NCBI GenBank assembly: GCA_947462765.1
Contig: CANHQK010000017.1
Coordinates: 1 to 37,609, forward strand
Source: Bdellovibrionales bacterium
Lineage (GTDB): Bacteria; Bdellovibrionota; UBA1018; CAIMNF01
Length of the DNA: 37,609 bases
Direction of reading: 5' to 3'
In this document: positions 8,687-26,167 of the stretch, one piece after another
How positions within the stretch are numbered: the first letter of the stretch is position 1
How the letters are laid out: every line of letters starts with the position of its first letter
Position numbers and translations under genes: made by a program
The notes under the pieces: model-generated
Seen by the model: only the letters and a program-made list of their open reading frames with translations
What the model was told of the DNA's origin: nothing
The model's database searches: none

Positions 8687-9441
8687 TCCGGATCCAGGAG
8701 ATATTCCTGGCGGCCTGTCTGATGGTTCAGAGTCTCGAGTCGGTCATTCAGGGTGACGGGATGTCTTACAGTCCGGGGTTCACCCGGTTTCCCGCGTGGG
8801 CGAGGCCGGGACTGCGGGCCTTGAGTTCCCCTTCTGGATTCCGAATTTTACACGGAATGCGAGTGATCGGAGCGGTGGCGCTGGTATGGTTTCCGGCTCA
8901 TCTCCCTGTGCTGGCGGGATTGTTGGCTCTTCAGTTCATCCTTCCTTTCCGCCACCGGGGCGCCTTCAACGGCGGGAGTGATTTCATGACCGCACAGGTG
9001 CTTGGAGCCAACTTCGCCCTGAGAGCGATCGGTTCGCATCCGGGCCAGGTCCGTGTGATTCTTTGCTACCTCGGGCTTCAAACCATCTTGTCGTACTGGA
9101 TTTCCGGTTGGCACAAACTCCGTCATGCGTCCTGGCGGAACGGTGAGGCTCTTCAGATTTTTTTGAGGAACAACCGCTACGGTACACCCGGGCCAATTCT
9201 GGACCTGGTCCGCTATCCTGGTTTAATGAAAGTGTCGGTCTGGGGTCTTCTGGCTTTTGAGCTTCTGTTTCCGTTTTCCATTGCCGGTCCCCGGGTGGCA
9301 TTGATGTTCATGGGGGTCGGCTTGGTATTTCACTACGCGGTGTTCAGGGTCTTCGGTCTCAATCGCTTTTTCTGGGCGTGGCTCGCAGCTTATCCATCTG
9401 TCTACTTTGTTTCGGTCCAGGGTTGGATGGTTGCACCTTGA
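8665..9441 (+). CDS. HTTM-domain (vitamin K-dependent carboxylase-like) membrane protein
   Basis: This 258-residue protein has about six hydrophobic helices. NGGSDFM, then SYWISGWHKLRHASWRNGEAL, FLRNNRYG and finally GLNRFFWAWLAAYPSVYF follow the order of conserved blocks in HTTM proteins (horizontally transferred transmembrane domain; SdpB and gamma-glutamyl carboxylases belong here). Function in bacteria is mostly unknown; SdpB matures a toxin peptide. The start at 8665 has GGGAG six bases upstream. I see no SdpC-like toxin gene nearby, so a role in peptide export is only a hypothesis. Confidence 0.65.
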   Translation: MEFTQLLIRIQEIFLAACLMVQSLESVIQGDGMSYSPGFTRFPAWARPGLRALSSPSGFRILHGMRVIGAVALVWFPAHLPVLAGLLALQFILPFRHRGAFNGGSDFMTAQVLGANFALRAIGSHPGQVRVILCYLGLQTILSYWISGWHKLRHASWRNGEALQIFLRNNRYGTPGPILDLVRYPGLMKVSVWGLLAFELLFPFSIAGPRVALMFMGVGLVFHYAVFRVFGLNRFFWAWLAAYPSVYFVSVQGWMVAP

Positions 9442-9466
9442 TTCGGTTTCCGTTTATACTCGGGGA

Positions 9467-10819
9467 ATGGGCACCAGGAAATCTTATAGGATTTCAGCAC
9501 GATTCAAGGAAATTCTGGATGTCTTGATCCGTGCGCGCCGGGAGGGTTCGAATCACCTTTGGAAGTCGAGTCGTCGCAAACTGGTTCCACTTTCGATCGT
9601 CAAACTCGACCCCGAGGCCAATCTGATCCAGGTGGTGATCGATTCGAAGCCGGATCTCAAACTGCAAAAGGGGGATACGGTCTACCTCAAGTTGGAGATC
9701 CGTGATTCCGCCTTCAAGACCGAGATTGCGGGATTGCAGGACAATCATTTGGTGCTCCATTTTCCAGAGGAAATTGCGCTCACCGAAAATCGCGCTGAAA
9801 AGCGCGTTTATTTTCACCCCACCGATCAGAAACAGGTTTTGATCCGTAAGGTAAGACCCGGGGCCTTGATGGTGCCGCAGAGAACCCTGTCCGTCACCCT
9901 GGCCGATATCAGTCAAACCGGGCTTTCGTTGATTCTGAGTCCTCAGCAGTCGACTGCGATCCAGCTTCGAGACAGGATCAGTCTCGAAATGCTTGGTCCT
10001 TACCGGATCCATCCTCCCATCCAGGGGGAGATTGTTTTCAAGATCGAACATCAGTCGCGTGGTACGCTCGGGGGACTGGAGTTCGGGTCGAAGGTCGGGA
10101 TCCATCTTGAACGCCGAATCGCGAAGGCGACTTTTGAGTCGTTTTGTGTCCGTGATCCCGCTTTTGACATATCGGAGATCCAGCTTGTCCGGGATCAGGC
10201 TTTCCGGCGTGATGTGCGGGAAAAAATGGGAGCTTTCACCAAGCAGATGCAGAGACGCAAAACGGGTGCATCCCTGATCGAACGGTTTGAGCGCGGGAGC
10301 AAAAGTTCTCCCTACCTGAAGAAGCATGTCGAGCTTTTGTGTGAGGTGATGTGCGGGCTCGGAACCCGGCTCGGGTGGGTTTCGAATGCCACGATCGATA
10401 AGCTCATTTATGTCGCTTACCTGCATGATGCCCGTTACTTCGGCTTACCGGCTCTTGCCCGGATTCGGGATCTTGGCGAGTTCCAGCGCGTGCGGGGAGC
10501 TCTCAGCCCTGAAGAGCAGCGCGCGTATCTCGAGGGTCCCGCCTATGCAGCTGAGCTAGCCCGTCAGGACAGCGAGTCCCACCCGGATGCGAGCAAGATC
10601 CTGTTGCAACAGAAAGAAATGCCCGATGGTTCCGGGTTTCCCGGTAAGCTGACGGGCCACCAGATCCTGCCACTCAGCTGTTTGTTCATCGTCAGTCATG
10701 CGTTCGTCGACTACGTCTATGACCATCCGGATTGGAGTCTCCAGGATTTCGTCAAAACCCACCGAAAGATCTACAAAGGGGCTTATTTTCAGAAGATTTT
10801 CCAGACGATGTTGGAGTGA
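9467..10819 (+). CDS. PilZ domain protein with C-terminal degenerate HD-GYP domain
   Basis: This cytoplasmic protein has 450 residues. The PilZ domain, about residues 105-215, has the c-di-GMP binding motif R109-AEK-R113 and DISQTG (147-152, the D/NxSxxG motif). The N-terminal 100 residues resemble the beta-barrel partner of YcgR-type proteins. Residues 285-450 follow an HD-GYP phosphodiesterase outline: HD at 320-321 is kept, but QQKEMPDGSGFP (381-392) replaces HHExxDGxGYP, so metal-binding histidines are lost. It may sense c-di-GMP with one domain and signal through a dead enzyme domain with the other. It is last in the plus-strand operon. Confidence 0.78.
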   Translation: MGTRKSYRISARFKEILDVLIRARREGSNHLWKSSRRKLVPLSIVKLDPEANLIQVVIDSKPDLKLQKGDTVYLKLEIRDSAFKTEIAGLQDNHLVLHFPEEIALTENRAEKRVYFHPTDQKQVLIRKVRPGALMVPQRTLSVTLADISQTGLSLILSPQQSTAIQLRDRISLEMLGPYRIHPPIQGEIVFKIEHQSRGTLGGLEFGSKVGIHLERRIAKATFESFCVRDPAFDISEIQLVRDQAFRRDVREKMGAFTKQMQRRKTGASLIERFERGSKSSPYLKKHVELLCEVMCGLGTRLGWVSNATIDKLIYVAYLHDARYFGLPALARIRDLGEFQRVRGALSPEEQRAYLEGPAYAAELARQDSESHPDASKILLQQKEMPDGSGFPGKLTGHQILPLSCLFIVSHAFVDYVYDHPDWSLQDFVKTHRKIYKGAYFQKIFQTMLE

Positions 10820-23390: not shown

Positions 23391-23927
23391 ATGAGAATCC
23401 CGGCTGGATGGATCGGATTCGAACTGTTGCGAGCCGGAATGGCATTTGCCGGGGAAGGGGTAGAAACCCCTTCCCCGGGGCCAACTGTGACGGCCACACC
23501 CGTCGCCACTCCCGAGGGGCCATTATCCGAAGATGAGCGTCGGAAGCTCCGCATGGAGTTCCGGTCCGCACTGAGGTCGGCAGAGCGGGCTTTCGAACAT
23601 CAAGAGCGGTCCTCCCTTCGGGAATTTCAGGCTTCGCAGGCCGTTGAGGCCAGGCAATGGAAGGAAAAGGAGCGATTGGCCCGGAGGAAGTATTTTGAAA
23701 AACACCCGACCGGACCTGAACAACGCAAATACGTTCTCGGTTTTGTGGAGCGTAAGAAGGAGTTCGATGCGAGTCAGATTCTCCAATTCCAAGCCGAGCG
23801 CAAGTCCTGGCGTGACAAGCGTGAGGCACACAAGGAAAAGCTGAAAGAGCGCTTGAAACGCTTTTTAGCGGAACTTGAGTCGGGAAAGCGTCCTTCCCGC
23901 GAACTTTGGGAGAATCTCCAGTTTTAG
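23391..23927 (+). CDS. Coiled-coil protein of unknown function
   Basis: This 178-residue protein is not recognised. A weak hydrophobic N-terminus (WIGFELLRAGMAFAGEG) may be a poor signal peptide. A Pro/Thr-rich linker follows, then residues 45-165 are highly charged (Arg, Lys, Glu) with heptad spacing, predicting a long coiled coil. GAGG lies eight bases before ATG 23391, and the gene starts eight bases after the subtilase stop, so the two are probably co-transcribed. A 13-bp perfect hairpin lies in codons 20-30. The last four bases overlap queE tail to tail. Confidence 0.6.
   Translation: MRIPAGWIGFELLRAGMAFAGEGVETPSPGPTVTATPVATPEGPLSEDERRKLRMEFRSALRSAERAFEHQERSSLREFQASQAVEARQWKEKERLARRKYFEKHPTGPEQRKYVLGFVERKKEFDASQILQFQAERKSWRDKREAHKEKLKERLKRFLAELESGKRPSRELWENLQF
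23449..23478 (+). repeat. 13-bp perfect stem with AGAA loop inside the coiled-coil gene
   Basis: Two Gs and Cs extend an 11-base perfect inverted repeat (23451-23461 with 23466-23476) to 13 pairs, closing at 23449 and 23478. The loop is AGAA. It is very GC-rich and would form a stable mRNA hairpin about 60 bases after the start codon. No T-run follows, so it is not an intrinsic terminator. Confidence 0.7.
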
Positions 23928-24598
23928 ACCCCGCGGGTGTCGGCGCCCCAGAGCAGTTTATGGAGTTGAAGTTGGAATCGTACTTCGAGGCGATCTTTCA
24001 GGATCCATTCAGCGAGGTCTCTCGGTTCGACTCCCTCGTATTTTCCGGGAGATTCTTTTACCTGCATGACCGGAGAAAAAAGGATTTCACGGACCGGTAG
24101 ATTTCCGGAGAGAACCCATTCTCGGGCCCACTCGTAGTCGGCCCTTGAGGTGATCACGAATTTGATTTCATCCTCCGGTTTCAGATCCTTCAGGTTTTCA
24201 CGGAAACGTTCCCTGCACATTCCCGAGCCGGGTGTTTTCACATCCATGATGATCCGGGCGAGGGAGCTGGCCTCCCGGATGGGCACTTCTCCGTGGGTTT
24301 CGATGGACACCCGATAACCTTCTGCACGGAGTGTCTGGATTAGAGGCAGGGTCCCCCGTTGAAGCAAGGGTTCTCCACCAGTCAGGAGGACTTCTTTGGC
24401 TCCGTTCTGACGCACTTTTTCCATCACATCACCCTGGCTCATCCGTGTGCCACCCTTGAACGCATAAGAGGAGTCACAGTAGACACAGCGGAGGTTGCAG
24501 CCAGTCAATCGAATGAAGGTAAAGGGCACTCCGGACAAGGAGGTCTCTCCCTGAAGAGAGTGAAAGATTTCAGTGACCAATAGCCCCTCGAATGCCAT
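23924..24598 (-). CDS. queE: 7-carboxy-7-deazaguanine synthase (radical SAM)
   Basis: This 224-residue radical SAM enzyme makes 7-carboxy-7-deazaguanine from carboxytetrahydropterin, an early step to preQ0/preQ1 and queuosine. The N-terminus EIFHSLQGE, the cluster motif C34-NLR-C38-VY-C41, LTGGEPLLQ and IETHGEV are characteristic. The start is uncertain: ATG 24598 has no ribosome site, and TTG 24580 has GAGGGG just before it. Only about 24 bases separate the upstream RNA terminator from the ATG, so queE may be controlled by read-through. tgt, which uses the end product, lies 7 kb away. Confidence 0.94.
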   Translation of the reverse strand: MAFEGLLVTEIFHSLQGETSLSGVPFTFIRLTGCNLRCVYCDSSYAFKGGTRMSQGDVMEKVRQNGAKEVLLTGGEPLLQRGTLPLIQTLRAEGYRVSIETHGEVPIREASSLARIIMDVKTPGSGMCRERFRENLKDLKPEDEIKFVITSRADYEWAREWVLSGNLPVREILFSPVMQVKESPGKYEGVEPRDLAEWILKDRLEVRFQLQLHKLLWGADTRGV

Positions 24599-24621
24599 GG
24601 GCAGGGTTTTAGCTCATCCCG

Positions 24622-24663
24622 GAAAAATAAGAAAGGTGTGACCGGGTTCACCGGCCACACCTT
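24622..24663 (-). terminator. Intrinsic terminator of the c-di-GMP-aptamer RNA
   Basis: On the minus strand AAGGTGTG, G-T wobble and CCGG pair with CCGG and CACACCTT around a five-base loop (24633-24663), followed by TCTTATTTTT. The stem is 13 pairs. It ends the RNA that starts upstream of the aptamer and lies directly before queE. Confidence 0.85.
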
Positions 24664-24761
24664 CCAAAATGAAGAGGGGGTCCATTGCGCATGATTTACC
24701 GGGGTAGAGTAAATCCTGGGTTGTTTCGGGACCCCCCTTGAAAGCTTTTTAGGCTTCCTCA

Positions 24762-24860
24762 CCTTTGGCAGCCCAGCCAGCGTAGACCTTCGGGGTAAAA
24801 GGCCCTTAGCTCTGTGGTTTTGCGTCTCCGACGTTTCCGTCGGGTTGCCCTTTTCAAAGG
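24762..24860 (-). promoter_or_regulatory. c-di-GMP-I (GEMM) riboswitch aptamer
   Basis: Reading the minus strand, GGGCAAC is followed by the P2 hairpin CCGACG-GAAA-CGTCGG with its GNRA tetraloop. AGACGCAAAACCAC (the GACGCAAAGCC core), GCTAAGGGCC...GGTCTACG (tetraloop-receptor side of P3), and GGGCTGCC closing P1 with GGCA come next. CCTTT/AAAGG extends P1. Order and spacing match the GEMM-I consensus; G in GCAAAGCC is A here. The ligand should be cyclic di-GMP, consistent with two PilZ proteins in the window. Confidence 0.82.
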
Positions 24861-24942
24861 GGGTTAGAGTATCTCCCGCCTCTTCACGAGCCCCGTTCCT
24901 TCGGAGCTCTTAAATTTTTCATCTGTTTCTTCGGTCTCCTGA

Positions 24943-24969
24943 TTCTCGAAATCCCCGTGCTCTGACTTA
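24943..24969 (-). promoter_or_regulatory. Sigma-28-like promoter candidate for the structured RNA
   Basis: TAAG (24969-24966), 15 bases, then TTCGAGAA (24950-24943) resembles the FliA consensus TAAA-N15-GCCGATAA: 3/4 and 5/8 with exact spacing. Transcription would begin near 24935. It lies inside a set of nested inverted repeats (24940-24997), which makes the assignment uncertain. Confidence 0.35.
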
Positions 24970-25057
24970 AATTTTAACGCAGAGCATTAGAGAATCAAGG
25001 AGTTTTCGCTACTTTTTTTCTGAAGTCCCCGACAAATCACGGTACGTTCATTCCATT

Positions 25058-26167
25058 GTGAAGTGGAGTCAATGGCTTGCATTGAGCTGGATTTTATTCG
25101 GTTTTTTTCAGGAAGCCCACGGAGCTCAGTCCTTTCAAAGTGAGGTGGAGCAGGATGTGCTCATGACCCGTCGTCTTCCCCTTTATCTGCTTCATCAGTT
25201 GGGTGACGTCAAGATCAGTGGAACCGTCCAGGATCGTATTCGGGTGAAGTTGAGGTTTCAGGTTCAGTCGGAAACTCGCGAAGAGGCGGAACAGGCGTTC
25301 AAGAATCTCGGACTCGTGACCTTCGAAACACGTGAGCGTTTTGAAATCCGGGTCGGTCATGCGCGGGGTCAGGATCTGGTCACCAAGATGAGGTCGAAAT
25401 CCAAGCACGCGGTACGGGTGGACCTGGAGATCCGCGCCCCCTATCAAAGTGATCTCACTTTGCTCCTGGGAGAGGGGAGATCCCTCAAGGTCGATCACTG
25501 GAGGGGCGGGTTGACTCTCAGCGGGATGAATTCGACTGTCGAACTCCAGCGCCTCGAAATGAACAAGCCCTTGATCGTAAATTGTGCGAAATGCCCGGTG
25601 ACACTCAGGGACTCCCGGGTGAATGGACGTTTGGTCGTCGGATCCAAGCCCGTATTGATTGAACGGGTGGAATCGTCGGGAGAGCTGGCCATTGATCAGG
25701 GATCGGAAGAAGTCCGGGTCCTGAAGAGCCGAGGTTTGTTGAGTGTGCACAGTGGTTCCGGTCCCTTGACGGTCGAGGGGTATTCCGGTGTGGTCAATTT
25801 TCAAAGTGATGAAGGCGGGGCCTTTCTTTCGCAGATCGAAGGGGCGTCGAATGTTCGAACTCAATCGGGCCAGGTCATGCTCGATTTTGAGACATTGAAG
25901 GGGCCGGTACATGTGGATACTGAGCGGGGAGACGTTCAGATTGCTCTTCATCCGGCATTCGAGGGAACCCTCGATCTCATGAGCCTGAGAGGCGAAGTGA
26001 TGGTGCAGTTTCCCTACGAAGTCCGCAAGGGTGCAAGTCAGGTACTTTATGGCCCGGTTTCGCCCGGTCGGGTCGACGCACGCGTCGGTTCGCATCAGGG
26101 GCATTATATCCATGCCTACACCAGGCAGGGCGGAGTCAGGATCTTGAGAAAGGCTCCATCCAAATGA
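25058..26167 (+). CDS. Exported DUF4097-like beta-repeat protein
   Basis: This 369-residue protein has a signal peptide ending EAHG-AQ (about 23). The mature part consists of short beta-strand repeats alternating hydrophobic and polar residues (GGLTLSG, GRLVVGS, GELAIDQG, GLLSVHSGSGPLTVEG). It ends in a regular beta region with VDTERGDVQIAL and TRQGGVRIL. This is the pattern of DUF4097/YvlB-type putative adhesins, often a right-handed beta-helix. Function is unknown. The GTG start lacks a good ribosome site. The stop overlaps the next start (ATGA), linking it to LPS glycosyltransferases. Confidence 0.68.
   Translation: MKWSQWLALSWILFGFFQEAHGAQSFQSEVEQDVLMTRRLPLYLLHQLGDVKISGTVQDRIRVKLRFQVQSETREEAEQAFKNLGLVTFETRERFEIRVGHARGQDLVTKMRSKSKHAVRVDLEIRAPYQSDLTLLLGEGRSLKVDHWRGGLTLSGMNSTVELQRLEMNKPLIVNCAKCPVTLRDSRVNGRLVVGSKPVLIERVESSGELAIDQGSEEVRVLKSRGLLSVHSGSGPLTVEGYSGVVNFQSDEGGAFLSQIEGASNVRTQSGQVMLDFETLKGPVHVDTERGDVQIALHPAFEGTLDLMSLRGEVMVQFPYEVRKGASQVLYGPVSPGRVDARVGSHQGHYIHAYTRQGGVRILRKAPSK

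Follow-up and report, generated by a model that had tools for sequence, protein, structure and literature searches.

The window analysed here is a 37,609-nt stretch of a contig from a Bdellovibrionales bacterium, and its minus strand carries a full-length match to the c-di-GMP-I (GEMM-I) riboswitch family RF01051 at 24764..24859 (model positions 1-87, E 3.1e-11). The covariance-model score of 67.3 bits is well above the gathering score of 35, so that the Rfam search proposed in the initial annotation bears out the GEMM-I core that it had described on this strand, and every motif it quoted is present. This is the only RF01051 copy in the 2.33-Mb assembly. Downstream on the same strand lies queE (23924..24598, -), encoding 7-carboxy-7-deazaguanine synthase; its product scores 249.3 bits with the best model, TIGR04349, below that model's cut-off of 300, and QueE models take the first four places. 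The upstream neighbour is divergent (25058..26167, +) and was identified as a DUF4097 gene by a Pfam search on the window's copy only. The list for the window's order comprises 55 genomes, of which 40 have an RF01051 match, and 35 of these 40 RNAs were aligned, the exceptions being L021, L030 and L113, which lack the conserved boxes, and L117 and L119, which contain N. All 35 aligned members have an invariant G at the putative ligand-contact position, which corresponds to G20 of Vc2. A class-I aptamer with G20A has been described bound to cGAMP (PMC6274999). We considered cGAMP as the ligand in place of c-di-GMP and rejected it, the contact base being G in 35/35. The genome has three GGDEF and eight PilZ matches, and c-di-GMP signalling is therefore likely present in the organism. 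One PilZ-domain match (27.7 bits, 9791-10135, +, within the ORF 9407..10819) is on the same contig as the RNA.

The aptamer appears to be framed by its own transcription signals. Since the upstream gene is divergent, an RNA starting here should need its own promoter, and a sigma-70-type pattern, TTGATT-16-TAAAAT, is present at 24971..24998 (-). In a scan of the window alone this pattern is not significant by itself (one site vs. 0.5 expected), and its support comes from relatives: an alignment of 15 upstream regions (the window and 14 relatives) has a common TTG...TA...T block, and an order-wide scan finds TTGN3-16/17-TAN3T in 34 of 37 order loci, against 3.8 expected from mononucleotide shuffles, with the three f3 loci L021, L030 and L113 left out. 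As the pattern was chosen after viewing the 15-locus alignment, the 22 remaining loci are the more telling set; 19 of them have it, vs. approximately 1.8 expected (summed), as do all 15 defining loci. Across the order loci, the -10 box precedes the first conserved helix (helix A, below) by 40 to 115 nt. From the position of the promoter pattern we infer a transcription start near 24964 and an RNA of approximately 340 nt, so that the 5' end likely lies further upstream than position 24935, where it had been placed initially. At the other end, the strong terminator that had been proposed is indeed there: an intrinsic terminator at 24622..24665 (-) consists of a 15-bp hairpin (24665-24631) followed by a U-rich tail that ends around 24622, the probable 3' end of the RNA. 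Hairpins of at least 13 predicted pairs are found in all 35 folded order loci, with L026 lacking a clear U-run. Judged by sequence, the RNA thus has both a promoter and a terminator of its own, as expected of a merRNA-type RNA. The earlier statement that the RNA contains no open frame needs correction, because a mechanically called 85-aa frame with a GTG start (24762..24505) overlaps its 3' part. A coding role was considered and rejected, this mechanical call being the sole overlapping frame listed.

GEMM-I members are typically cis-regulatory leaders, and the Rfam type of RF01051 is Cis-reg. This raises the question as to whether the RNA is an ordinary c-di-GMP riboswitch whose terminator controls queE. 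In 34 of the 40 order loci a QueE match begins no more than 310 nt downstream of the aptamer, and the gap between terminator and queE is small, with 23 nt from the U-tract to the queE start in the window and short distances in most of the 23 measured loci. A separate promoter would hardly fit there, and read-through may therefore feed queE. On the other hand, five order loci (L012, L023, L111, L112 and L120) keep the conserved core and the terminator without queE directly behind them; in L023 queE is 1,256 nt away, and in L111 507 nt of contig remain. In one further locus of the 40, L011, the contig ends before queE could be judged. Outside the order, where 96 loci have an aptamer match, none of the 50 fetched has a QueE match in the stretch obtained, which reached approximately 130 to 2,500 nt downstream. 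The RNA itself also argues against such a control: roughly 100 nt of conserved structure separate aptamer and terminator in the window, and the 5' arm of the terminator has no upstream partner better than chance (mean z +0.5, one locus of 35 below -2). An antiterminator for queE control, as expected of a transcriptional riboswitch, was accordingly rejected for the 35 order loci. Given the five order loci and 50 outside loci without adjacent queE, the RNA need not be a queE leader, and we regard the cis-acting reading as unlikely, while a cis effect on queE within the window's order is possible. The lack of a fixed downstream gene is what would be expected of a merRNA-type RNA, even though 34 of the 40 order loci do have queE behind the RNA.

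Other neighbours vary as well. A protein of the same sequence cluster as the DUF4097 protein is encoded upstream and divergently in 19 of 40 order loci. In L111 (genome G012) a tRNA-like gene, recognised by eye, follows the terminator in the place of queE. Outside the order, the downstream mechanical ORF (at least 70 aa) is convergent in 32 of the 48 loci that have one. In L126, L127, L131, L134, L138, L142-L145, L150, L155, L159, L160, L166 and L167 a convergent gene downstream encodes a LysM-containing, lytic-transglycosylase-like protein, and in L148, L150, L151, L155, L157, L159, L161-L166 and L170 an Mrp-like P-loop ATPase is encoded upstream (both named by eye from sequence). The three family f3 loci, L021, L030 and L113, have the aptamer before queE with a gap of 257-310 nt to the gene and a differing 3' part (CCCCCCUCA...GGGUGGU or similar); in these three the RNA may be built differently or may truly be a queE leader.

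The RNA is predicted to be highly structured. The region 24960..24620 (341 nt) folds with -129.5 kcal/mol (z -4.7, with none of 100 shuffles as good), and the 3' part folded alone has a z of -4.3 (0/200 shuffles as good). From 5' to 3', the aligned order RNAs consist of GAAGAGG, a variable hairpin, CCCCCUUUGAAA, the aptamer with an ACCCC P3 loop, CAAAGG, a variable part, UUUCAAAGGGGGG, UCC...GGACCCCC and CUCUUC, with a hairpin H0 preceding this core and the terminator following it. In the window, H0 is a predicted 8-bp hairpin with the loop AAGGAA (24888..24909, -); among order loci an A-N-(G)GA-like loop is often retained in H0 on stems of differing sequence. Helix A joins GAAGAGG (24879..24885, -) to CCUCUUC (24671..24677, -), both strands identified from the order alignment. 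Helix B has its 5' strand, CCCCCUUUGAAA, at the 5' edge of the aptamer (24852..24863, -; alignment and predicted pairing) and its 3' strand, UUUCAAGGGGGG, at 24732..24743 (-; alignment, shuffle test and pairing). The P3 loop UACCCC is at 24792..24797 (-), and the A and C columns of its conserved ACCCC are each kept in 32-34 of the 35 order RNAs. The proximal CAAAGG, the 3' strand of P1, was located by the order alignment at 24762..24767 (-), and the 3' hairpin H2, GGGGGGUCC ... GGACCCCC with an inner stem, at 24676..24737 (-) by folding of the 3' part and by RNAalifold. Helix A, helix B, H2 and the ACCCC loop are common to nearly all 35 aligned order RNAs, in agreement with the earlier suggestion of a lineage-specific 3' extension. 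A model built on the order RNAs also agrees with it, since it gives the window 180 bits and the 30 loci searched outside the order 19-73 bits. The stem GGGGGUCC/GGACCCCC that had been proposed for this extension is order-specific, and it does form, enclosing a second stem, when the 3' part is folded alone; it is lost in the lowest-energy fold of the whole RNA, in which the G-run pairs with the C-run preceding the aptamer and not with GGACCCCC.

For the 35 order RNAs, RNAalifold recovers helix A, helix B and part of H2 in addition to the aptamer stems. Changes kept on both strands are seen in one sequence for helix A, one for helix B and two for H2. Helices A and B are both nearly invariant within the order (99.6% and 94.5% paired cells, respectively), and their covariation within the order does not clearly exceed that of shuffled controls, the paired percentage being reached in 107 of 500. 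The case for helix B therefore rests on comparison between families. In 37 of 88 loci, no more than five of 100 shuffles pair with the strand preceding the aptamer as well as the native sequence does, where approximately five such loci would be expected. This support comes from 19 of 35 order loci and eight of 23 loci of the Bdellovibrio family, and further from families f14-15 (3/5), f16 (2/7) and f18 (5/10); families f3, f7, f20 and f9 have no supportive locus among eight in this shuffle test. In the window 3/100 shuffles are as good, whereas for Bdellovibrio bacteriovorus HD100 alone the number is 24/100, which is not significant. Strand pairs differ between loci and yet are complementary, for example UACUUCC/GGAAGUA, CCUCUCU/AGAGAGG and UAACCUUCCU/GGGAAGGUUA (without shuffle control), and the longest complementary run lies 20 to 56 nt 3' of the aptamer in 36 of 47 outside loci (also without shuffle control). 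At the level of predicted pairing, changed but complementary strands in other families thus support helix B.

Several of the conserved strands have more than one potential partner. CCUUUG, just before the aptamer, can form standard pairs with the proximal CAAAGG (24767-24762) in 33-35 of 35 RNAs per pair, and with a distal CAAAGG in at least 30 of 35 per position. The G-run can pair either with the strand preceding the aptamer or within H2. A pseudoknot in which the ACCCC of the P3 loop is the partner of the G-run is suggestive only; in L026 the G-run is interrupted and the ACCCC loop is missing. When the aptamer stems are imposed as constraints, 33 of 35 RNAs prefer the helix B state to the P1 state, by a median of -4.3 kcal/mol in energies that ignore tertiary contacts and the ligand, and L025 and L026 prefer the P1 state. 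Ligand binding could plausibly overcome this calculated difference; alternatively, the aptamer might accept c-di-GMP while helix B replaces P1. The competing partners of the G-run suggest a ligand-driven switch, and such a conformational change is plausible on these models. In the scheme that we propose, the ligand-free RNA would prefer the long helix B. The RNA would bind c-di-GMP, as the invariance of the putative ligand-contact guanine suggests, and binding would favour the local P1, formed by CCUUUG and the proximal CAAAGG; this would free the distal G-run and allow H2 to form. The outcome could be buffering and release of c-di-GMP, as proposed for merRNA by its discoverers, or an altered surface for a partner, and cis control of a gene would not be required.

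Two rival readings were also weighed. In the first, the RNA would be a c-di-GMP-gated trans-acting sRNA, the ligand shifting the C-rich CCCCCUCUUC or another segment between a paired and a free state, and the free strand pairing with ribosome-binding sites of mRNAs. In favour of it, the C-rich 3' strand hardly varies within the order, the energies of the competing helices differ little, and UUCCCCUUA stands just before the terminator in 15 of 21 aligned Bdellovibrio-family RNAs (an alignment that was cut at the UUCCCCUUA-type box and leaves out L141, which lacks the box). However, helix A and H2 already explain the C-rich 3' strand, and we give this tentative, bolder reading a modest probability. 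In the second, the RNA would be a c-di-GMP-gated sponge for the RNA-binding protein CsrA. GGA is found in the H0 loop of 24 of 35 order loci vs. 6.2 expected, and GGA-bearing hairpin loops per RNA exceed those in shuffles both in the order (1.43 vs. 0.65) and in the Bdellovibrio family (1.83 vs. 0.94). The window's H0 loop, AAGGAA, fits the ANGGAN hexaloop (PMC7652899), CsrA is present in 40/40 order genomes searched, and there is a precedent in the riboswitch-controlled sRNAs EutX and Rli55 (PMC7602753). Strict hexaloops occur in seven of 36 order loci (1.9 expected), two of three f3 loci (0.1 expected) and five of 24 f14-f20 loci (1.3 expected), but this also means that 29 of the 36 order loci lack one, and in the Bdellovibrio family their number is at chance (2/23 vs. 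1.4 expected). Moreover, the order RNAs have no excess of GGA overall (7.1 vs. 8.0 in shuffles), the seven of the 40 searched genomes that lack the RNA have CsrA too, and each positive order locus has a single ANGGAN hairpin loop, where RNAs of the CsrB/RsmY type have several. We therefore rejected the sponge, since its strict binding hairpin is not widely conserved despite the GGA-rich H0 loops, and consider it very improbable.

The RNA has relatives well beyond the order. A phylum-wide search found an RF01051 match in 136 of 368 genomes, one each and 135 of them above the cut-off, with stricter filters, so that weak matches may be missed. Single-copy c-di-GMP-I RNAs thus appear to extend to many families of the phylum, for most of which only the aptamer was compared in detail. 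One of these matches, in genome G172 (1073868-1073951, -), falls inside the published merRNA coordinates of B. bacteriovorus HD100 (1,073,741-1,074,185, -), and for this reason we take G172 to be HD100, which belongs to the same phylum as the window's organism but not to the same class. HD100 merRNA has this aptamer too, in a similar arrangement, in line with the merRNA likeness claimed in the initial annotation, and its transcript end as published from RNA-seq falls 5 nt past the U-run of the terminator that follows the aptamer. Upstream there is no clear parallel: the best promoter pattern near the published HD100 start has a spacing of 18 and ends 16 nt before that start. The order model scores HD100 lower than the aptamer model does (45.1 vs. 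60.8 bits), and the 3' domain is therefore lineage-specific in sequence, with no shared extension visible. Within the order, 15 of the 55 genomes have no RF01051 match (e.g. G020, G022, G030, G032 and G036). Seven of the 15 are more than 90% complete, and all seven have GGDEF and PilZ matches; the missing RNA may reflect loss or, for some genomes, assembly gaps. A cryptic RNA in these 15 genomes was also considered and rejected, the order model finding nothing in 11 and weak matches in four (E 0.001 to 0.97). The four weak-match stretches have no QueE match, and no conserved core was seen by eye in the parts inspected.

Taken together, a genuine aptamer framed by promoter and terminator patterns and followed by differing downstream genes makes it probable that this locus encodes a merRNA-type small RNA, approximately 340 nt long, that stands alone and binds c-di-GMP, much as first proposed. 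A broader and more speculative idea, which we think has only a modest chance of being right, is that merRNA belongs to an old family spanning much of the Bdellovibrio phylum and acts as a c-di-GMP-gated, trans-acting conformational switch instead of a passive reservoir. Under this idea, c-di-GMP would move the pre-aptamer strand from its distal to its proximal partner, and the re-paired G-run would make the C-rich 3' strand accessible or inaccessible to partner mRNAs or proteins. The reservoir role of merRNA has so far been speculation about one genus. What selection has kept is the aptamer, the competing pairings and, in many of the families, a helix flanking the aptamer, while neighbour genes change; single-copy relatives with kept RNA features and changing neighbours argue for a function in the RNA itself. 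The conserved pairings name positions to mutate in HD100.

Among known systems, the closest is merRNA of B. bacteriovorus HD100, which is massively expressed in attack phase and for which a c-di-GMP storage role has been proposed (PMC3627812); it is downregulated in stator-gene mutants (PMC11323537). The merRNA authors saw no sign that it is conserved beyond the Bdellovibrio lineage (PMC3627812), and in the open PubMed Central literature, which leaves out most subscription papers, we found no description of merRNA outside the genus Bdellovibrio. Both merRNA (PMC3627812) and the window RNA are non-coding, with a single-copy c-di-GMP-I aptamer and their own terminator, and both have a C-rich strand just before that terminator. 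An aptamer-flanking helix as in the window RNA is possible in merRNA, being supported in its family but not in HD100 alone. The two differ in that merRNA is 445 nt long with a 234-nt 5' part (PMC3627812), vs. a probable length of approximately 340 nt for the window RNA, and in that the order-specific 3' domain (H2 and the G-run), the ACCCC P3 loop and the place before queE are found for the window RNA only; expression is known for merRNA only. With the RF01051 family at large the window RNA shares the full-length match and the conserved core, but unlike typical RF01051 leaders it has no gene expression platform that we could recognise. EutX and Rli55 likewise contain a small-molecule aptamer, in their case joined to a trans-acting RNA, and vitamin B12 causes transcription to end early, so that the sRNA is not made (PMC7602753). 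In the window RNA, by contrast, aptamer and terminator seem independent, and the full RNA should therefore form with or without ligand.
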